A stretch of DNA of 43,580 nucleotides from a virus. The notes below the pieces were generated by a model. That model worked only from the letters and a program-made list of their open reading frames with translations. It was not told the origin of the DNA and ran no database searches. Below, in pieces: positions 1 to 43,580 of the stretch (its first letter is position 1; every line of letters starts with the position of its first letter). The stretch spans positions 1 to 43,580 of the IMG/VR virus record IMGVR_UViG_3300049893_000934. The stretch is one strand, 5' to 3'. A program made the position numbers and the translations under genes.

Positions 1-127
1 TACCCGTTAATACCTATTAATACCTGCAAGTTCAAATCCCGGATATGCGGGGAAGAAATTTCTCTGTTTTCTTTTTTTCGCATATACTATAGAGTCCCTG
101 TATGGCGAAAAACAGAACTGTCGTTCC
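1..127. repeat. 127-bp direct terminal repeat, left copy
   Basis: The first 127 bases are identical to the last 127 bases of the window (43454-43580). They cover the upstream region of the first gene and its first nine codons. A 127-base identical overlap is what a de Bruijn assembler run with k=127 leaves on a circular contig, so I read this as an assembly closure and not a biological terminal repeat. The non-redundant unit is 43453 bp. Confidence 0.95.
60..88 (+). promoter_or_regulatory. putative promoter of the packaging/structural operon
   Basis: A -10-like TATACT (83-88) lies 17 nt after a weak -35-like TTCTCT (60-65), behind a pyrimidine-rich run. The predicted start falls around 95-97, only about 5-7 nt before the ATG at 102, so the transcript would be nearly leaderless. 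The AGTCCCTG motif (93-100) covers the predicted transcription start. The -10 is good and the -35 is poor. Confidence 0.45.
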
Positions 128-30917: not shown

Positions 30918-30946
30918 ATTCTAGTGCTATGTCTTATGCAAGTAAA
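30918..30946 (-). promoter_or_regulatory. promoter TTTACT-17-TAGAAT
   Basis: Minus-strand TTTACT (30946-30941) and TAGAAT (30923-30918) with 17-nt spacer, preceded by ATCCAG as at 2191 and 5738. It lies at the 3' end of the VRR-NUC gene and drives the gene starting at 30908 with a predicted leader of two or three bases. Confidence 0.7.
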
Positions 30947-31302
30947 CTGGATTGGAAATCTTTTTTCTTTACCTGGATCAGCGGTAATTCATCGATTGCA
31001 AGATATTTACCTGATTGCACAATGGCGAATGGAAAGCGGTAAACTTCAACAATGTCAGCATCCAAGGCAACTACAAACACTTTACCTCCGCACAGAGTTC
31101 TTCTCATTCCCCAAGCGTATTGTTCTTTTTCAAGCTTTACCTGGCCATTTCTCACAATCTTCGTCTCTATCCACACATCACCCGTTTGCTTTGAGCAGTA
31201 GCTAATATCAGGGATTCCTGCCCCGATAGTATTTTCTATCCTGACCACATGACCAGGAAGCTTGGTTCGTAACCACGCTGAGAATGCCTGTTCTTCTTTC
31301 AT
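30934..31302 (-). CDS. VRR-NUC-type PD-(D/E)XK endonuclease
   Basis: 122 aa, usual size for stand-alone VRR-NUC nucleases. The motif set is E (E3/E4 in EEQAFSAWL), GIPDI (Asp in the metal site), then WIETK (E-x-K) and the LEKEQYAWG segment that follows it in this family. Phage members cut DNA structures such as branches or flaps. It lies next to the polymerase, overlapping it by 4 bases, suggesting a job in replication or host DNA breakdown. Confidence 0.8.
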   Translation of the reverse strand: MKEEQAFSAWLRTKLPGHVVRIENTIGAGIPDISYCSKQTGDVWIETKIVRNGQVKLEKEQYAWGMRRTLCGGKVFVVALDADIVEVYRFPFAIVQSGKYLAIDELPLIQVKKKDFQSSLLA

Positions 31303-33191
31303 TTCCAGTGTTCTCCGTAAGATAGATCCGCACGGATAGGAACTTCCATTTTAACGCAGTTTTCTGCCATTACCTGAATCTTTTTTGCCTCATCCTCTGA
31401 TTGGCAGCCGTAATTAAGTTCATCGTGAACTACCATGTAAGGAATCTTACCAGTCTCCTTATGGACAAGCAGCATCGCAGCTTTGGTCATGTCAGCCGCA
31501 GATCCTTGAATCAAGGAGTTCAGGGACTTGTGGGTATGTGCACGTTGTAAGCGCAGCCCCTTCCACTTCTCTTGAGCGTCTGCCAATTTGCGTGGCCGAG
31601 TATCCTTACCTTGTTCCTTAAGTTGAAATGAGTTAGCCGGTTCCCACCAGTTGAAGTGCCGCCGCCGCCCACAGATGGTTCTGATGTAACCCCGTGATTG
31701 GGCTAGTTGCGCACATCGATCAGAGATCTCCCTAACGAATGGGACAGAACGATCAAACTCAGCTAGTTTCGCTTTCGCGGCATCTTCCGAAATACCGAGT
31801 TTAACTGCGAGTTTCTTGGCACCCATTCCATAACAGCGACCAAGCGTAATGTCTTTCGATTCTCGTCTGGAGATGGATGCACTATCCGCAAGGAATTGGT
31901 AAATGTCCATTTTGGGGTTGTCGCGATAGGCCATCCTGGTAAGGTCTGCTCCGATGAACTTGCATAGATAGGCGAAATGAACGAGGAGGCGAGGTTCTTG
32001 CTGAGAGTAGTCAAGTTTACCCCATTTACCGTGACCTTCATGTGGTATAAATAGTCTCCTTACTAGGTGAGCATAATCGCTTCTAGATGGGACTTGTTGA
32101 GGGTTGGGGTTTGCCGCTGCCATCCTACCGGTTCGTGCGCCACCGTCATCCGCTTTGAGTTGCTTCCACTGTGGATGAATCTTCCCAGAGATCTGATTTC
32201 CGAATATCCACTCATCGACAAAAGTATCACGTAGACGATTAAGCTCTCTGAGCGCACTGACTTTCTTGAGAAGTGGGTGGTCGTGTTCATCAAGCCAATC
32301 ACCCTCGAATGAGGGATTCCCCTTAGGTGTGCGGGGATATAGTATCTTGAGTCGATCACAAATAGAAGCAAGCATAGTGCTACTCCAGGGATCAATACGA
32401 CACTGATGTTCTTTCCAGATTTCATACCGAATGTCTTCTTCCTTGCTCTTTAGCTCCCTGCTCAATTTGCTTGCCTCTTCAAGGTCCATCTGGATGCCTT
32501 GTTGCCGCATTAGCCATAGCAATCTGGTTAGCGGGAGTTCGATATTCAGGATCTCTTCAAGTCCCTGGGCTTCGATTTCCTTTTGTTGTGCCTGCCAGAT
32601 CTTGATCGGAGCAAGCGCATCGAACTCTGCGTAAGGTCCGACATACTTGGAATGCATTTGCCATAACCCGCTTTTCGGATGACAACCATATTCCGCGGCT
32701 GCAGACTTAAGTAAAGTTTCGTCTTTCGATGTAGACAAGTAACGTCGACATAAGCTGTCCAGGTTGTATGTTTCCTGCTCCTCATCAATCAACGCTTCTA
32801 CCACTTGAATGTCGATCAAGTCCCCTGGAAGCATTATGTCTTTCGTGGACAACCACTCCAACTCATACTGCAAGTTAGCACCTACGTAAGTGCGTGGTTT
32901 ATTCAATGTATCCTGTAGGAAGGACACGACATTATCTTCTGGGAGGTTTCCACCATCAGCATGACGGAAGGGAAAATACCAGGACTTGTCTAATGTAGAC
33001 AGAGAGACACCAACTACGTAACCATCGTTCCGTATCCCGCCAGGTCCTTTACTCTCAAGGTTCGGGTCTTTGGTTTCAAGATCGACTCCCAACACCTTTT
33101 CACCCGAAAGGTTCGGGAAGTCTGTAGGAGGTAGCCAGCTGGATTCTGGCATAAAGAGCCCCCGCATTGCCATTAGGGGTTTTGTCTTCAT
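31299..33191 (-). CDS. family A DNA polymerase with 3'-5' exonuclease
   Basis: 630 aa, typical for phage PolA without a 5' nuclease domain. The exonuclease begins with VLGVDLETKDPN (DxE). Polymerase motif A is DYSQQEPRLLVH, motif B RRESKDITLGRCYGMG, motif C VVHDELNY. At the position of E. coli Phe762 the residue is Leu (K-D-I-T-L-G). This gene is the replicative polymerase. It overlaps the thymidylate-synthase homologue by 4 bases and the nuclease by 4 bases. Confidence 0.95.
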   Translation of the reverse strand: MKTKPLMAMRGLFMPESSWLPPTDFPNLSGEKVLGVDLETKDPNLESKGPGGIRNDGYVVGVSLSTLDKSWYFPFRHADGGNLPEDNVVSFLQDTLNKPRTYVGANLQYELEWLSTKDIMLPGDLIDIQVVEALIDEEQETYNLDSLCRRYLSTSKDETLLKSAAAEYGCHPKSGLWQMHSKYVGPYAEFDALAPIKIWQAQQKEIEAQGLEEILNIELPLTRLLWLMRQQGIQMDLEEASKLSRELKSKEEDIRYEIWKEHQCRIDPWSSTMLASICDRLKILYPRTPKGNPSFEGDWLDEHDHPLLKKVSALRELNRLRDTFVDEWIFGNQISGKIHPQWKQLKADDGGARTGRMAAANPNPQQVPSRSDYAHLVRRLFIPHEGHGKWGKLDYSQQEPRLLVHFAYLCKFIGADLTRMAYRDNPKMDIYQFLADSASISRRESKDITLGRCYGMGAKKLAVKLGISEDAAKAKLAEFDRSVPFVREISDRCAQLAQSRGYIRTICGRRRHFNWWEPANSFQLKEQGKDTRPRKLADAQEKWKGLRLQRAHTHKSLNSLIQGSAADMTKAAMLLVHKETGKIPYMVVHDELNYGCQSEDEAKKIQVMAENCVKMEVPIRADLSYGEHWK

Positions 33192-33955
33192 GGTATGTCA
33201 AGGAAATTTCTAGGGTGATCCCTATTGAACTTTAGGTAATCCCTTAGTTCATCGGGGTGTTTTAGGTCATATAAACCCATGTCTTTATATTGCTCGATGA
33301 CTATGGGTGCCTCAAGAAACTCATGCACCTTCACAAGATCTGTTAAGTAGATATGCGATGAGGCGAAGTTAAGATGCAGCATTCCTGGAAGCAACCCACG
33401 CCCCAATCGCAACCTAACAAACTGCGTCATCATTGAGAATGAGAAGATGTCGTAAGGAAGCCCAAGCCAGGTATCCGAACTTCGCATGTTCACAACAGTG
33501 TGGATGTAATTCTCACGCACAAGGAACTGCATCGAGATTGTGCAAGGAATATCCTTACTGGCCATTGGATTGCGTTCCCAAAACGTCATTACTGCTTGAC
33601 GAGAACGCAAGTCCTTTTTCAGGACATGCACAACGTGATCGACTTGCTTTACGAACTTAGGCCCGTAAGCCCCTGACAATGTTTTTCCGTCATCAGAGTA
33701 TTCACGCATTCGAGCACACCATGGTTCGATGTCCTTTAACTTGTTGCTCCCCGTAATCATCCAGTAAGCCTCAGCAAACAGGAGAGCGTAACTGACCTTT
33801 CTGTGCACCAGCGTAATAGCTGGATACTCCATGTCGAGGGACAGGGACTTATGGAGCAATTCACGGGTTGTCTTGCCCCGGATGTTAACCTCAGTCCCAC
33901 CGTAGGTTACCCCATGCAGGTGATCTCGCCAAAGATGGCAGTTTGTTAGTTTCAT
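33188..33955 (-). CDS. thymidylate synthase superfamily, predicted dCMP hydroxymethylase
   Basis: 255 aa, similar in length to T4 gp42 (about 246) and ThyA (264). Catalytic residues align by spacing with E. coli ThyA: Glu62 (E58), Cys138 in IPCT (C146), Arg158 and Asp161 in MRSSDTWLGLP (R166, D169), His201 and Tyr203 (H207, Y209). The base-recognising Asn177 of ThyA is replaced by Asp169 (LPYDIFSF). Asp there is the signature of dCMP-specific enzymes such as T4 dCMP hydroxymethylase, and Asn-to-Asp mutants of thymidylate synthase switch to dCMP. It sits between a nucleotide kinase and the polymerase. A dCMP or hydroxymethyl-dCMP product is inferred. Methylation versus hydroxymethylation cannot be decided from sequence. 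Confidence 0.8.
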   Translation of the reverse strand: MKLTNCHLWRDHLHGVTYGGTEVNIRGKTTRELLHKSLSLDMEYPAITLVHRKVSYALLFAEAYWMITGSNKLKDIEPWCARMREYSDDGKTLSGAYGPKFVKQVDHVVHVLKKDLRSRQAVMTFWERNPMASKDIPCTISMQFLVRENYIHTVVNMRSSDTWLGLPYDIFSFSMMTQFVRLRLGRGLLPGMLHLNFASSHIYLTDLVKVHEFLEAPIVIEQYKDMGLYDLKHPDELRDYLKFNRDHPRNFLDIP

Positions 33956-34488
33956 ACTAGTGACGCTGCGAATTTAGAAAGTTCCGCTCCCTGTTCGTCC
34001 ATGTTATAGGTTACGATTTTGTTAGCAGGAGAACGACCAAGCGCTTCAAACAGCCTATCGTAACCTAGCACGATTTTATCGTAATCGAGTAGGGAATACT
34101 TCTGGTGGTCGTGTTCTTCCTTCACATGCCGTTCGCGTGAGCTTAGACACTTGGCATAGATGTAAGTTACATCAACATCCTTGAGTAGTTCTTGGAATGA
34201 TTGATGCCTGAAGTTTGCAAGCCTCTCGACAGGCCCAATTGCTTGGCCGTAGACAAGCTCAGACAACCAGCCACGATCAAGCACCACTCGGAGGTTAAGG
34301 TGTTCGGTTACCCAAACCATGTTTTTCAGCACGCTATAGTGGTAGTCGTGCATTGCTCCCGCCTGAACAAGGTTTTCAGTCTTGTCGAAGTGGAAGTAAA
34401 CAGCTGGGCGAAATTGCTGTGCTAGAAACTTTGCAAGACACGTCTTGCCAGTGTTATCTGCACCTTCGATGATAAAGATCTTACTCAT
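33952..34488 (-). CDS. deoxynucleoside monophosphate kinase (P-loop)
   Basis: 178 aa. P-loop GADNTGKT (residues 9-16), the LID/DRGWLSELVYGQ segment (DR-x-W motif typical of thymidylate kinase-like and deoxynucleoside kinase-like phage enzymes) and a later Arg-rich loop (LSSRERHVKEEHDHQKYS, key Arg). It overlaps the hydroxymethylase gene by 4 bases and the NTP pyrophosphatase by 8 bases. It would phosphorylate the modified nucleotide (or dTMP/dGMP/dCMP) toward the triphosphate, like T4 gp1. The precise substrate is not readable. Confidence 0.8.
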   Translation of the reverse strand: MSKIFIIEGADNTGKTCLAKFLAQQFRPAVYFHFDKTENLVQAGAMHDYHYSVLKNMVWVTEHLNLRVVLDRGWLSELVYGQAIGPVERLANFRHQSFQELLKDVDVTYIYAKCLSSRERHVKEEHDHQKYSLLDYDKIVLGYDRLFEALGRSPANKIVTYNMDEQGAELSKFAASLV

Positions 34489-35149
34489 TGCGGTGTTTCT
34501 TGAGAAGGGCTTCGATGGTGTCCTTAAGGGATTGTGATCGTTCTCCCTTATCTAGTCGTTCTAGTATCGGGGTAAACTCGTATCTGATTGCAGCCCCTAA
34601 TGAAGCATATACTGCATTAGGTTTGTCTCGAAGAACGAACTCTGCAAGGCAGATAGACACTGCGGATTTAAGGTTTTCCCACCTTGCAATAACTTCAGGA
34701 TCGTTTTCACCAACCAAGTCTGTGAGGTCAGGAGCTACCCAACCAGGTGGTTTTACAACATCGAAACCAGACCCGCGTTTAGAATCACTTCCGTCAGGAA
34801 GCGCTCTTTTTTTGCGCATATTGGCTGCATGAACACGCCTCCATGCTTCACGGAAATTCCAACCCCGAAGGTAGCATGTCCCAAGGCAGAAGTAAAACAG
34901 GTCAACGTAACCATCTAACTTGTCTGCGTCAGTAGGTGCATTGTGAATCTCGGTTACTTCTTCGAGTTCTTGGGTGTTGCGTAAGGTTGCTAACTCTGGT
35001 GGGAGCTCACGAGGAGGTCCATCGTAAGCTAGATCAAACTTTTCATGGAATTCGATAATGTCTTGAAACGGATCAAACGGTTGCACGTTTGCTGTTTCTT
35101 CAACATCAGCGTTACTAACTCCCGGTGGTAGGTTGCTTGGTTGTTTCAT
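34481..35149 (-). CDS. MazG-like/all-alpha NTP pyrophosphohydrolase
   Basis: 222 aa. The helical core has the EExxE...D-G-x-x-D pattern: ELEEVTEI, then DKLDGYVDLFYFCLGTC and a later EAWRRVHAANMRKKRA. C-terminal SKRGSGFDVVKPPGWVAPD is typical of phage members. These hydrolyse (d)NTP to (d)NMP and PPi. In this operon a dCTPase-like role supplying dCMP to the next gene is attractive (compare T4 gp56), but the family covers several substrates. A start at 35149 overlaps the previous gene by 35 bases. Confidence 0.75.
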   Translation of the reverse strand: MKQPSNLPPGVSNADVEETANVQPFDPFQDIIEFHEKFDLAYDGPPRELPPELATLRNTQELEEVTEIHNAPTDADKLDGYVDLFYFCLGTCYLRGWNFREAWRRVHAANMRKKRALPDGSDSKRGSGFDVVKPPGWVAPDLTDLVGENDPEVIARWENLKSAVSICLAEFVLRDKPNAVYASLGAAIRYEFTPILERLDKGERSQSLKDTIEALLKKHRNE

Positions 35150-35354
35150 TGTTTTCGAGTGTTATGGTTGTTGCTGCAAATACAATTTCTGCTGCTGTTC
35201 TTACGGACCAATCAAGTTTAGGGTTTCGTCGGCATTCATCTGCCCTGTGCTTTGTTTCTTCAAGTTCATGCTTAGGCCGTGTTGCCACCCAATCACGTGT
35301 TTCTTTGTAGAGATTTATGATCGCGAGTTGAGTAACTGTAATCTCAGGAGTCAT
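35115..35354 (-). CDS. small hypothetical protein
   Basis: 79 aa, helical and charged (TRPKHELEETKHRADECRRN), overlapping the methyltransferase gene by 11 bases and the pyrophosphatase gene by 35 bases in another frame. No cysteine pair or membrane segment. Tight packing in the nucleotide-modification set supports that it is real, but it could also be a spurious frame. Confidence 0.55.
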   Translation of the reverse strand: MTPEITVTQLAIINLYKETRDWVATRPKHELEETKHRADECRRNPKLDWSVRTAAEIVFAATTITLENNETTKQPTTGS

Positions 35355-36234
35355 GCTGCATCTCCTTCCACAGGTGAGAACTACCCCATGGTTCTTGGCA
35401 GGTAGATAGGGGCTTGAACTTGTGCACGTATCCGGGTGTTACCCCATCTGACTGCGGTTGCTTCCTCAACTCCCACAGGCAGTTGCGAGAAAAACCTGGG
35501 AACAATGGGGCGAAGACACAGGACAGGAAGTTGCTGTCATAGTATTCACGAAGCTTTTCGAATGTGTGTCGTAGTGACAGCACACCCTCGCTCTGGCTTG
35601 CCACACCAAGCAAATGATCATAATCCCTGATAGACGCGAATGTCCCATAAACCTTCTCGATAGCAAACCCCGCAGCTTCAAATACGGCACCCAGGGCTTC
35701 ATACGTCATTTCGTTGACGTGGTTGGCCGCGCAATCCACTCGATTCCAGCACGGAGTGCTGAAGAAGAAGACCGCATCCTCGGTGGTAAGTGCTTGCACC
35801 TTAGCCAGCATCGCAAGCATGTGTCTCGGTTCGACATGTTCGAGAACTTCAAAACACGTGACCCAATTAGCTTTCCCAGAATCAAGATCTTCCTCAGTAA
35901 GGCTACACAGATCTGTCCGCTCCCAGACTTTGATGGGGAATTTGCCAGAATCAAACACATTGAGGGTTTCGTCAGGGATTGGACCCACATCGATCCCATA
36001 ATATCGTTCAACAATGTATCTCGATGAGTAGAGCGTCTTAGCGAGAGGCATCTCACGCCCGCACCCAACATCAAGAATTCTTGCTGTATTGTAGTTTTTT
36101 CTTTCTCCAAGCCGCTTAATGACGTGGGACCATCGTAAACAGTGGGCGATGTAATCTCGATGAATAAATCCCCGTTCCTCTGCTCCATCGATACTGAGAT
36201 ACGTTGTGTCGACATTTTTTCCTCTTTCGTTCAT
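35344..36234 (-). CDS. SAM-dependent class I methyltransferase
   Basis: 296 aa. Motif I ILDVGCGREMP (SAM binding), an acidic residue after beta2 (YYGIDVG), and motif IV-like CFEVLEHVEP give a Rossmann methyltransferase of the small-molecule/sugar type. No DNA-methyltransferase NPPY or PC motif. C-terminal extension of ~90 residues has no clear family. In this position, just upstream of the pyrophosphatase-kinase-hydroxymethylase set, it could act on a nucleotide or on another substrate. This is open. Confidence 0.75.
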   Translation of the reverse strand: MNERGKNVDTTYLSIDGAEERGFIHRDYIAHCLRWSHVIKRLGERKNYNTARILDVGCGREMPLAKTLYSSRYIVERYYGIDVGPIPDETLNVFDSGKFPIKVWERTDLCSLTEEDLDSGKANWVTCFEVLEHVEPRHMLAMLAKVQALTTEDAVFFFSTPCWNRVDCAANHVNEMTYEALGAVFEAAGFAIEKVYGTFASIRDYDHLLGVASQSEGVLSLRHTFEKLREYYDSNFLSCVFAPLFPGFSRNCLWELRKQPQSDGVTPGYVHKFKPLSTCQEPWGSSHLWKEMQHDS

Positions 36235-36757: not shown

Positions 36758-37711
36758 TTAAAGAAGTGTAGCAACTCGCATTCCTCTCCACGCTTTGAAA
36801 ATGGGAGTCCTGGGCAGGTCCTTAGCACCGTGCGGTTGATGCTTGTAAGTGAGTATCCTGCCCTTAAGTTGGTCTCTTTCTATCCATAACTTGGCGCGAT
36901 CTGCAGCATTGAACCCGCTACCCACCTTGAACTCTTGCTCAGTCACAATGTCCCTGACAACCAGAGCACCGAGCACCCCGCTTGCTTCCATGCCGGCAGA
37001 ATGGGTGGATCGCTCCTGATAGCCCAATGCATTGATTTCGGGAGCATTGTGGTTCCGCATGAGTTCTTCATACCCGATAACCATTGCTTCACCATCTGAG
37101 AACCGCTTCATTTTCAGAAGCCAATGTTCTTTCATAGATGACCTCCCGAATTTATAGGGTGAATGAGGGGCACGGAGACACACACCCTCATGTCCCATAG
37201 CAATGCATCTTTCCTCGTAATCCTGTAGTTCCTTAGGATCTCGCACAACAGTGTGCTCTACGATGTGGCAAAACGTAGGAAGAGAAACTGCATGAATGGA
37301 TTCCAGGCGAAGCTCGTATTTCGTAAGAACACCGCGATGCCATCGCTCATCGATTAAGTTCTCCAGACGGTCAAAGATGTGGAACTGGAAATCTGGTTGT
37401 CCGTCAAATGACATGATGCCAGACGCTGACTTATGAAAGGCAGCACCTGCGATGATCAGTTCACCATCAAGTCCGGGTGGCAGGGACTTGGATATTGCCT
37501 GGCGTATGTGCCGATTAGGAATGTCTTTCAGTGAACGAGTAACCGGCCTGCAACTGTAGTTGTCTGATGGCAGGGTGAAACAACGGATCCCATCAATCTT
37601 GGGTGTTGCAATCAATGGATAGACAAGCTCTTCAATGTCGTCGACTGCAGCTGCCAACATTGGCTTGAATTTAGGGCTAACTGGAATAGGTGTCATAATG
37701 GTGGTTGGCAT
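36758..37711 (-). CDS. ATP-dependent DNA ligase
   Basis: 317 aa. Motif I TPKIDG (adenylated Lys38), motif III-like LDGELI, motif IV HEGVCLRAP followed by motif V LLKMK, and a C-terminal OB-like region (VGSGFNAADR). Seals nicks between Okazaki fragments and in repair. It has no N-terminal DNA-binding extension, as in other small phage ligases. Preceded by DUF932 gene with an 81-bp gap. Confidence 0.93.
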   Translation of the reverse strand: MPTTIMTPIPVSPKFKPMLAAAVDDIEELVYPLIATPKIDGIRCFTLPSDNYSCRPVTRSLKDIPNRHIRQAISKSLPPGLDGELIIAGAAFHKSASGIMSFDGQPDFQFHIFDRLENLIDERWHRGVLTKYELRLESIHAVSLPTFCHIVEHTVVRDPKELQDYEERCIAMGHEGVCLRAPHSPYKFGRSSMKEHWLLKMKRFSDGEAMVIGYEELMRNHNAPEINALGYQERSTHSAGMEASGVLGALVVRDIVTEQEFKVGSGFNAADRAKLWIERDQLKGRILTYKHQPHGAKDLPRTPIFKAWRGMRVATLL

Positions 37712-42659: not shown

Positions 42660-43477
42660 GGTATTGATATGTATTAACGGGTATTAGTGATTGTGGGTGT
42701 TGTATGTTGTTACGAGGTAATATGATGTGGGGAACTAGGTCATTGGTATTAGGAGTATTAGATTGATTAGGATGTGTTGAGGATAAGGAGGTTTATGCGT
42801 GTTGCATATCGATGCGCTAGCTTTGGACTGTGGATCGTGGAGTTAGGAATGTGGTTGTGGACCGGTCCAATGCGTTCATTTGTAAAATCGAGCACACGAA
42901 CCGTGTGCGTTGTGTCACGACCCGCTTAATCGTGGGCGGTGGCCTACAAGTGCATGGTGCATGCGTAAGGCAGCATGGAGACAAAGCACATTTCGTAAGA
43001 AATGTGACCCGGTCAATTGTTTTTATGAGGGCACCTGGGGGGCCCGAATCAACTTTCATCATCAGAGGATGCTGACCCACGAATCTACTCGGAGCACCCG
43101 GCGAACCTTACGGACAGGTATACAGAGGAAACGCCCTGTCCTCATGTTCTTGTTATATTAAGCAAAAACTGACAATCGTAATTATCGTATAGTATTAGGA
43201 CGGTATTGGCAAGCTAATACCATCTAAGTAGTTGATAATCAATTACTTTCGTGATTATAGCTTATTGGTATTAGAGGTATTGACATTTTTATAAAAATTC
43301 ACTTTTTCTATCGGCATTCTATCGGTATCCGCCCAAAGGAAACTCAAATCAATGAAGTAAAATTTTTTGAAGTGTTAATACCATCAATACTACAAAAAAT
43401 AATTGATATAAGTCATTGATTATCATATATTTACACAGTATTAATCATGTCAATACCCGTTAATACCTATTAATACC
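42660..43477. repeat. GGTATTA/TAATACC iterons in the divergent non-coding region
   Basis: A 7-8 base unit GGTATTAG (or its complement, with GGTATTG and GTATTAG variants) recurs: 42660-42666, 42671-42677, 42680-42687, 42745-42752, 42755-42761, about 43192, 43202-43208, 43214-43221, 43267-43274, 43276-43282, 43376-43382, 43451-43457, 43460-43467 and 43470-43477. The last two lie within the assembly-duplicated end and repeat at 7-14 and 17-24. Between them the DNA is AT-rich (about 43160-43450). Together this resembles an iteron-type replication origin or a repressor operator array. Confidence 0.65.
42790..43145. ncRNA. possible structured non-coding RNA between iteron clusters
   Basis: About 350 bases with no convincing protein frame but a dense series of dyads: TGGACCGGTCCA (42858-42869, perfect palindrome), GCACACG/CGTGTGC with a 3-nt loop (42892-42908), CACATTTC/GAAATGTG with a GTAA tetraloop (42987-43006) and GGACAGG/CCTGTCC (43112-43141). 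GC content is higher than in the AT-rich flanks. A 43-codon ORF from the ATG at 42795 follows AAGGAGG and is an alternative reading. I do not recognise an Rfam family. Confidence 0.4.
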
Positions 43478-43580
43478 TGCAAGTTCAAATCCCGGATATG
43501 CGGGGAAGAAATTTCTCTGTTTTCTTTTTTTCGCATATACTATAGAGTCCCTGTATGGCGAAAAACAGAACTGTCGTTCC
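43454..43580. repeat. 127-bp direct terminal repeat, right copy
   Basis: Identical to positions 1-127, including the iterons, the putative promoter and the first codons of the terminase-small-subunit gene. It closes the circular contig and is probably not a second physical copy. Confidence 0.95.

Follow-up and report, generated by a model that had tools for sequence, protein, structure and literature searches.

An operon in a 43,580-nucleotide stretch of viral DNA (IMG/VR record IMGVR_UViG_3300049893_000934; hereafter the window) very probably replaces the cytosine of the phage's DNA by means of a dCMP hydroxymethylase. This reading draws on the genes, their order, active-site residues, clade and gene linkage described here, together with restriction-resistant DNA in a cultured relative. 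The pathway is widespread, and it has a tightly linked methyltransferase without an assigned role. A phage whose DNA is fully cytosine-modified is protected against restriction and against many CRISPR systems, and some standard tools of epigenomics are enzymes that came from such phages. If the methyltransferase O-methylates 5-hydroxymethylcytosine (5hmC), the result would be a phage DNA base without a known natural precedent, and the enzyme, being specific for 5hmC, would make a useful reagent; we know of no organism with 5-methoxymethylcytosine as a DNA base.

A thymidylate synthase homologue predicted to hydroxymethylate dCMP

The predicted dCMP 5-hydroxymethylase gene (33188..33955, minus strand) is an intact ORF of 255 aa whose product belongs to the thymidylate synthase (TS) superfamily (PF00303, 80.9 bits; cut-off 24.3). 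Aligned to E. coli ThyA, the protein retains the catalytic Cys, folate Glu, phosphate Arg and conserved His and Tyr of the TS fold (Glu62 = E58, Cys138 = C146, Arg158 = R166, Asp161 = D169, His201 = H207, Tyr203 = Y209) and carries Asp169 at the position of ThyA N177, exactly the set of residues that an earlier note on this DNA had listed. Asp at this position fixes cytosine specificity (PMC5175136, PMC6400193). The catalytic residues and Asp169 were invariant in the synthases of eight diverse phages (alignment A1), and Asp was present in 69/69 synthases from further IMG/VR loci that had been found through the methyltransferase gene and not selected on Asp; this conservation excludes chance.

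Asp135, three residues before Cys138, corresponds to T4 Asp145 and was kept in 92/92 relatives of the window synthase, and an Asp (or Glu) three before the catalytic Cys is a water-activating hydroxymethylase signature (PMC6400193). Thr139 is likewise the T4 residue, where ThyA has His and dUMP hydroxymethylases have Asn, and Arg119 with Ser159 forms the deoxyribose-type pair, deoxyribose preference being read from Arg and Ser rather than the Lys and Ala seen in MilA (PMC5175136). The signature is present only in part, since Gly95 replaces T4 Ser94 where a Ser or Thr is expected two before the catalytic Tyr. MilA has Gly and SPO1 gp29 has Ala there, so this criterion is not universal among hydroxymethylases; given Gly95, we describe the protein as one that would work like a dCMP hydroxymethylase (EC 2.1.2.8).

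By sequence and by fold, the closest solved protein was MilA, a cytidylate hydroxymethylase (predicted fold, pLDDT 91, against 5jp9 at E 3.8e-19), and the protein scored far under the cut-off of the NCBIfam ThyA models. In the synthase tree the window fell within a phage clade of 27 rows (support 98/96), with ThyA apart (100/100), dUMP hydroxymethylases apart (91/95) and the T4 gp42 group separate (97/91), which placed it outside the true dTMP synthases and led us to reject membership of the gp42 clade. Because of that separation, the assignment of enzyme function rests on residues and context, and the parallel with T4 drawn in the earlier note is only partly right: the logic of dCTPase, hydroxymethylase and kinase stands, and kinship with gp42 does not. 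A DNA-level search found no near relatives of the window.

The same note had proposed replacement of cytosine by hydroxymethyl- or methylcytosine. The cytosine pathway holds, and of the two products hydroxymethyl is favoured. A dCMP methyltransferase of the XP12 kind, yielding 5-methyl-dCMP and 5-methylcytosine in the phage DNA, has precedent in that Asn-to-Asp ThyA variants yield 5-methyl-dCMP (PMC8670742) and that XP12 replaces cytosine with 5-methylcytosine, its dCMP methylase being counted in the TS family (PMC5175136). We nevertheless consider it very unlikely here, as judged by T4-based criteria: the water-activating Asp135 sits where ThyA has Leu, the Trp80 and C-terminal tail that shelter hydride transfer in ThyA are missing, and in other phages the synthase family pairs with 5hmC-kind carbamoyltransferases, which need a hydroxyl. 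A primer search of IMG/VR for the XP12 dCMP methylase found nothing.

Restriction-resistant DNA in a cultured relative

Among cultured relatives that share the cluster, Stenotrophomonas phage AXL3 is the closest; its DNA resists 35/37 restriction enzymes, in a panel that cannot separate 5hmC from a capped form, and is cut only at the A/T-only sites AATT and TTAA (PMC7504290). Like the window, AXL3 and Pseudoxanthomonas phage PW916 carry a cluster of methyltransferase (gp31 in AXL3), NTP pyrophosphatase, kinase and synthase, to which both add a deaminase, and their synthases (38-39% identical to the window's) have Asp at the cytosine position. AXL3 is a siphovirus with a dCMP deaminase, whereas the window is a podovirus without one. 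With this cultured phage, the identity of the base can be tested.

The digestion pattern also bears on a dUMP hydroxymethylase, which would produce hydroxymethyluracil or a hypermodified thymine, perhaps via the dCMP deaminase that adjoins the module in relatives; the PW916 gene is annotated as a deoxyuridylate hydroxymethyltransferase, and the SDDG motif is common to SPO1. This identity was rejected and is highly improbable, as both base-reading positions are Asn in the sampled dUMP-type enzymes but Thr and Asp in the window family, the two groups sit on separate tree branches, only sites containing G or C resist cleavage in AXL3, and no deaminase was found in the window, although most relatives have one. 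An ordinary dTMP synthase that merely boosts dTTP alongside nucleotide-supply genes is scarcely credible and was likewise rejected, although the annotation reads thymidylate synthase in AXL3 and in Pelagibacter phages, with a thymidylate kinase also annotated in AXL3, because Asp at 177 shifts preference away from dUMP (PMC8670742), Asp169, Thr139 and Asp135 stand where ThyA has Asn177, His147 and Leu143, the tail is absent, the tree excludes the window from ThyA, and AXL3 has a separate ThyX. Residues, the MilA match, the tree and the restriction resistance of AXL3 thus support the dCMP hydroxymethylase that had been read from the sequence at the outset.

Operon neighbours and conservation of the module

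The kinase, pyrophosphatase and family A polymerase named as neighbours in that first reading were borne out by profile matches. The P-loop nucleotide kinase (33952..34488, minus strand), a predicted hm-dCMP kinase, matched phrog_761 thymidylate kinase (E 2.3e-14), gave chance matches only when compared with the PDB by sequence, and was present in 48/57 homologous modules. The all-alpha NTP pyrophosphatase (34481..35149, minus strand), a predicted dCTPase, matched PF01503 (31.9 bits, E 1.7e-7) and phrog_671 and was present in 47/57 modules, being fused to the kinase in L041, L045, L058, L071 and L092. The family A DNA polymerase (31299..33191, minus strand; PF00476, 185 bits) is the next gene in most homologous modules. 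Beyond it, as a further member of the operon, lies a small protein without a match in Pfam (30934..31302, minus strand), a probable nuclease from its position, which is that of a gene labelled VRR-NUC in MW202510. A small ORF of 79 aa, also without a Pfam match, lies between the pyrophosphatase and the methyltransferase (35115..35354, minus strand). An ATP-dependent DNA ligase (36758..37711, minus strand; PF01068 and PF14743) is syntenic in MW202510, and both of its domains are associated with cytosine-modified phage contigs in MetaGPA (PMC8670742). Adjacent operon genes overlap by 4-8 bases, as under translational coupling. The module order MT-NTPP-KIN-TS-DCD-PolA was conserved at 24/57 TS-first loci and 30/57 MT-first loci, and hundreds of IMG/VR stretches matched the synthase patterns. 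That the window lacks the dCMP deaminase (DCD) of most relatives is a point against the cytosine pathway.

The window had earlier been called T7-like, and its virion module fits that description, with a T7-type connector (PF12236, 373 bits), tail tubular proteins and internal virion proteins. Its replication genes do not (AEP/PriCT primase, UvrD and SNF2 helicases). A T7-like podovirus (Autographiviridae) would have a single-subunit RNA polymerase as well as the connector; PF00940, the T7-type RNA polymerase profile, had no match in the window, and control genomes gave none either.

In the pathway that we propose, the pyrophosphatase would convert dCTP to dCMP, and the synthase homologue, drawing on methylene-tetrahydrofolate, would attach a C1 unit at C5 of dCMP, with water quenching the intermediate to give 5-hydroxymethyl-dCMP. 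The kinase, together with host enzymes, would raise this product to the triphosphate, which the phage polymerase would incorporate into DNA, and the modified DNA would then resist restriction enzymes that need plain cytosine. The adjoining methyltransferase may, as the likeliest of its candidate roles, complete the base by placing a methyl group on the new hydroxyl, by analogy with the 5hmC carbamoyltransferase and glucosyltransferases that add other groups in other phages.

A linked methyltransferase with a HEN1-like metal site

The earlier note had omitted one member of the gene set, a SAM-dependent methyltransferase (35344..36234, minus strand) that matches PF13489 (54.6 bits) and the Hen1/UbiG profiles, the latter weakly overall (E about 1e-5 to 1e-7). 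Aligned with Hen1 3jwi, it carries the HEN1-like metal ligands E129, E132, H133 and H172 (ExxEH...H; ligands taken from PMC10781085), and all four were invariant in 145/145 methyltransferase sequences. The metal site alone does not name the substrate, and a PDB fold search returned general class I folds, including base methyltransferases, that did not name it either. A synthase homologue was present at 56/57 IMG/VR loci found through the methyltransferase, methyltransferase and carbamoyltransferase co-occurred at 0/37 loci, and in four contigs (L209-L212) a carbamoyltransferase takes the methyltransferase's place in the same operon (NTPP-KIN-TS-DCD). One member of this phage carbamoyltransferase family has proven 5hmC activity. 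At loci without the methyltransferase, the genes beside the module included a carbamoyltransferase (L037), C5-cytosine methylases (L031, L034) and a NUDIX protein (L042), with weak PLP-enzyme matches at L021 and L086.

We tentatively suggest that the methyltransferase acts on the hydroxymethyl group, O-methylating 5hmC to 5-methoxymethylcytosine. A methyl group elsewhere on the same base, for example at N4 of hydroxymethylcytosine, would fit the linkage equally, and base methyltransferases are among the fold neighbours; this is somewhat unlikely, as the nearest relatives, HEN1 and UbiG, are O-methyltransferases and motif IV of the window protein is ExxEH. In exocyclic-amine DNA methyltransferases, motif IV is [DNS]PP[YFW]. 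Hen1 being among the nearest solved relatives, and the HEN1 metal ligands being present, the protein might instead be a HEN1-like 2'-O-methylase of RNA 3' ends that serves RNA repair and plays no part in the DNA base. This we think unlikely, given that the methyltransferase occurred without the dCMP hydroxymethylase module at just 1/57 loci, that it and the carbamoyltransferase are mutually exclusive, and that the window genes scanned included no RNA-repair partner. Should O-methylation hold, the phage may carry 5-methoxymethylcytosine in place of cytosine, the hydroxymethyl group being capped, on the nucleotide or on DNA, by a metal-dependent methyltransferase of HEN1-like type; the methoxymethyl cap would then be an alternative to carbamoyl and glucosyl caps, found in many unrelated phages. 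We hold this extension a shade more loosely than the O-methylation itself. A literature search found no report linking any methyltransferase with phage hydroxymethylcytosine.

Comparison with known systems

The window operon has its pathway logic in common with T4 gp56 dCTPase, gp42 hydroxymethylase and gp1 kinase, and its synthase resembles gp42 in the residues equivalent to Asp179, Asp145, Cys148 and Thr149 and in lacking the ThyA tail. It differs from T4 in clade, in the Gly replacing Ser94, in having no glucosyltransferase, and in an operon that includes a family A polymerase and a methyltransferase. The CMP 5-hydroxymethylase of mildiomycin biosynthesis, MilA, agrees with the window synthase in the Asp that reads cytosine, in the Asp that precedes Cys by three residues and in a Gly at the Ser94 position, and differs at the ribose-reading pair. 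SPO1 gp29, a dUMP hydroxymethylase of TS type, has the FSDDG motif and the Asp three before Cys in common with the window synthase; it reads the base with Asn and Asn and branches separately.

The methyltransferase has the EVxEH, STP and (N/D)HxxE motifs of HEN1, bacterial Hen1 and the UbiG O-methyltransferases, in the order seen in Hen1. It belongs to a phage-specific family with signatures of its own, HRDYxAH in the N-terminal part and SRNxLW in the C-terminal part, and we regard it as a relative of HEN1 in its active site, not as a HEN1. In MetaGPA, Asp177 and residue 147 mark the synthases of cytosine-modified phage contigs, along with PF01503 and DNA ligase (PMC8670742), and the window has the same co-occurring Asp177, changed residue 147, PF01503 and ligase. 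Where MetaGPA contigs have a 5hmC carbamoyltransferase, the window has a HEN1-like methyltransferase instead, an enzyme class that the main text of that paper does not name (PMC8670742).

Genome and operon layout

An exact 127-base direct repeat was found at both ends of the window (1-127 and 43454-43580), and the window is therefore probably a complete, circularly assembled genome, though the record is classed as linear. Virion genes occupy the + strand (1 to about 24 kb), with a GNAT acetyltransferase (PF00583; 11726-12181, + strand) among them, and replication genes lie on the - strand. The "T7-like" label of the earlier note suits only the connector and tail genes; the replication genes (AEP/PriCT primase, UvrD, SNF2) are of another kind.

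A tight - strand operon, with overlaps of 4-8 bases at most gene junctions, encodes in order of transcription a class I SAM-dependent methyltransferase (METHYLTRANSFERASE; 35344-36234; PF13489, 54.6 bits), a small ORF (35115-35354), an NTP pyrophosphatase (34481-35149), a P-loop kinase (33952-34488), the thymidylate synthase (TS) homologue (33188-33955; PF00303, 80.9 bits; ORF intact), a family A DNA polymerase (31299-33191) and a small protein (30934-31302).

The TS homologue resembles dCMP hydroxymethylases

We aligned the TS homologue to E. coli ThyA, T4 gp42, SPO1 gp29 and MilA. Glu62, Tyr97, Arg119, Cys138, Arg158, Ser159, Asp161, His201 and Tyr203 are kept, and ThyA Asn177, the position that decides between cytosine and uracil (PMC5175136, PMC6400193, PMC8670742), is replaced by Asp169. 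At ThyA Leu143 the window protein has Asp135, the counterpart of T4 Asp145. In T4 this residue activates the water molecule from which the hydroxymethyl group is formed, and the D145N variant is dead (PMC6400193). Arg119 and Ser159 form the deoxyribose pair, whereas MilA, a ribonucleotide enzyme, has Lys and Ala there. The catalytic Cys is followed by Thr, as in T4 (His in ThyA, Asn in the SPO1 kind); ThyA Trp80 and the C-terminal tail are missing. Unlike T4, with its signature residue Ser94, the window protein has Gly, as does MilA.

Asp135 was kept in 92/92 viral relatives in one alignment. The 100% Asp169 among pattern-found relatives is partly built in, because one search pattern contains this residue (31 sequences match only the other pattern); in a clean test independent of that pattern, Asp169 was present in all 69 TS homologues of loci found via the methyltransferase.

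In a maximum-likelihood tree built from 52 proteins, ThyA branched apart (100/100), dUMP hydroxymethylases of SPO1, Yuavirus and ViI-like phages formed their own branch (91/95), and a third branch (97/91) held T4 gp42; the deep branching order is unsure because several end branches are long. The window protein grouped with MW202510, MW202621, AXL3, PW916 and Pelagibacter phages in a 27-row phage clade (98/96). Its AlphaFold model (pLDDT 91.2) matched MilA best (E 3.8e-19), above every ThyA structure, and MilA was also the top match by sequence. The residues, coordinates and neighbours named in the earlier note proved correct (intact ORF, PF00303, ThyA alignment), and its dCMP reading is supported by Asp169, the tree and the MilA match; of its two proposed bases, hydroxymethyl- is favoured over methylcytosine.

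Cellular TS homologues with Asp177 and Thr after the Cys also occur outside the phage module, mainly in Bacillota and Pseudomonadota genomes (loci L095-L115). In MW202510, the window's nearest annotated relative, a gene deposited as a G:T/U mismatch-specific DNA glycosylase adjoins the primase (L004 16211-16699).

Relatives with probably modified DNA

In the cultured Stenotrophomonas phage AXL3, genes for a methyltransferase, a pyrophosphatase, a kinase, a TS and a dCMP deaminase form a homologous cluster. Its DNA resists 35/37 restriction enzymes and is cut only by TasI and Tru1I, whose sites are both A/T-only (PMC7504290). The authors read its gp28 as a dTMP synthase (PMC7504290), but Asp at position 177 argues against this, and AXL3 also encodes ThyX (PMC7504290), so gp28 is not needed for dTMP. 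In MetaGPA, TS homologues on phage contigs with modified cytosine are marked by Asp177 and by residue 147, and PF01503, dCMP deaminase and two DNA ligase domains (PF01068, PF14743) are likewise associated with cytosine modification (PMC8670742); all these features except dCMP deaminase are in the window.

The annotated thymidylate synthase of Pelagibacter (SAR11) phages HTVC200P and HTVC119P (L006, L009) is an Asp-type enzyme with a kinase-like neighbour, and neither phage has the methyltransferase or the deaminase; these two marine phages may carry DNA with plain 5hmC.

A HEN1-like methyltransferase is linked to the module

The methyltransferase was found in just four phages of 50,697 phage records, each with an Asp-type TS. 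In IMG/VR, searching from the TS recovered the methyltransferase in 44/57 loci with enough flanking sequence, and searching from the methyltransferase recovered the TS in 56/57, the single exception being a 13.9 kb fragment; by comparison, any TS match occurs in about 2.9% of phage records (1,464/50,697). In the commonest arrangement the methyltransferase is followed by pyrophosphatase, kinase, TS, deaminase and polymerase. Several loci (L041, L045, L058, L071, L092) have the pyrophosphatase and the kinase fused in one reading frame, which supports both acting in one pathway.

Profile search matched the methyltransferase to UbiG and Hen1, its nearest families, both of which methylate oxygen. 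Glu129, Glu132, His133, Ser159, Pro161, Asn171, His172 and Glu175 are invariant in 145 sequences, and aligned Hen1 has EVIEH, STP and DHxxE at matching positions; the HEN1 metal ligands are Glu796, Glu799, His800 and His860 (PMC10781085). The model (pLDDT 84) has a general class I fold, for which fold search named no substrate.

A carbamoyltransferase takes the same place

In locus L037, which has no methyltransferase, a carbamoyltransferase lies immediately upstream of the pyrophosphatase, kinase and TS genes; one likewise adjoins the module in L209 (the same contig as L037), L210, L211 and L212. Scanning from the L037 protein gave 40 loci, 37 with a TS having Asp135 and Asp169, and none of these 37 has the methyltransferase. 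Across 144 methyltransferase and 37 carbamoyltransferase loci combined, no locus had both genes (p = 7.6e-25, which shows only that the pattern is not noise, since the set includes duplicate contigs and related, non-independent phages).

A phage carbamoyltransferase beside a TS gene was shown experimentally to act on the 5hmC hydroxyl (PMC8670742), so a metal-dependent O-methyltransferase occupying that position most likely does too. We tentatively suggest, from this analogy, that the methyltransferase may target the hydroxyl of 5hmC and yield 5-methoxymethylcytosine; the target could also be a different atom of the base or an RNA end. The earlier note saw no glucosyltransferase, and none was found among the window genes scanned; the methyltransferase, however, is a probable tailoring enzyme.

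Other genes adjoin modules without the methyltransferase: a C5-cytosine DNA methylase (PF00145; L031 2-1069, L034 1715-2785) and weak matches to PLP-dependent enzymes (PF00291; L086 7804-8796, L021 11959-12876), the latter a possible third kind of tailoring enzyme. In Actinomycetota (L111, L116, L117, L118; Paractinoplanes, Virgisporangium and other Micromonosporaceae), a carbamoyltransferase directly follows an Asp-type TS homologue, which could represent a cellular pathway of pyrimidine hydroxymethylation followed by carbamoylation, as in a nucleoside antibiotic cluster.

Comparison with known systems

Replacement of cytosine through a TS-type hydroxymethylase is already known from T4. 5-Methoxymethylcytosine, if this is indeed the base, would to our knowledge be a new natural DNA base; prior reports are possible, most subscription journals and bioRxiv lying outside our search. 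The Asp177 TS group in cytosine-modified phages is known from MetaGPA (PMC8670742). Judged by the literature searched, what is new is a conserved module that includes a HEN1-like methyltransferase, and the position of that enzyme as an alternative to carbamoylation.
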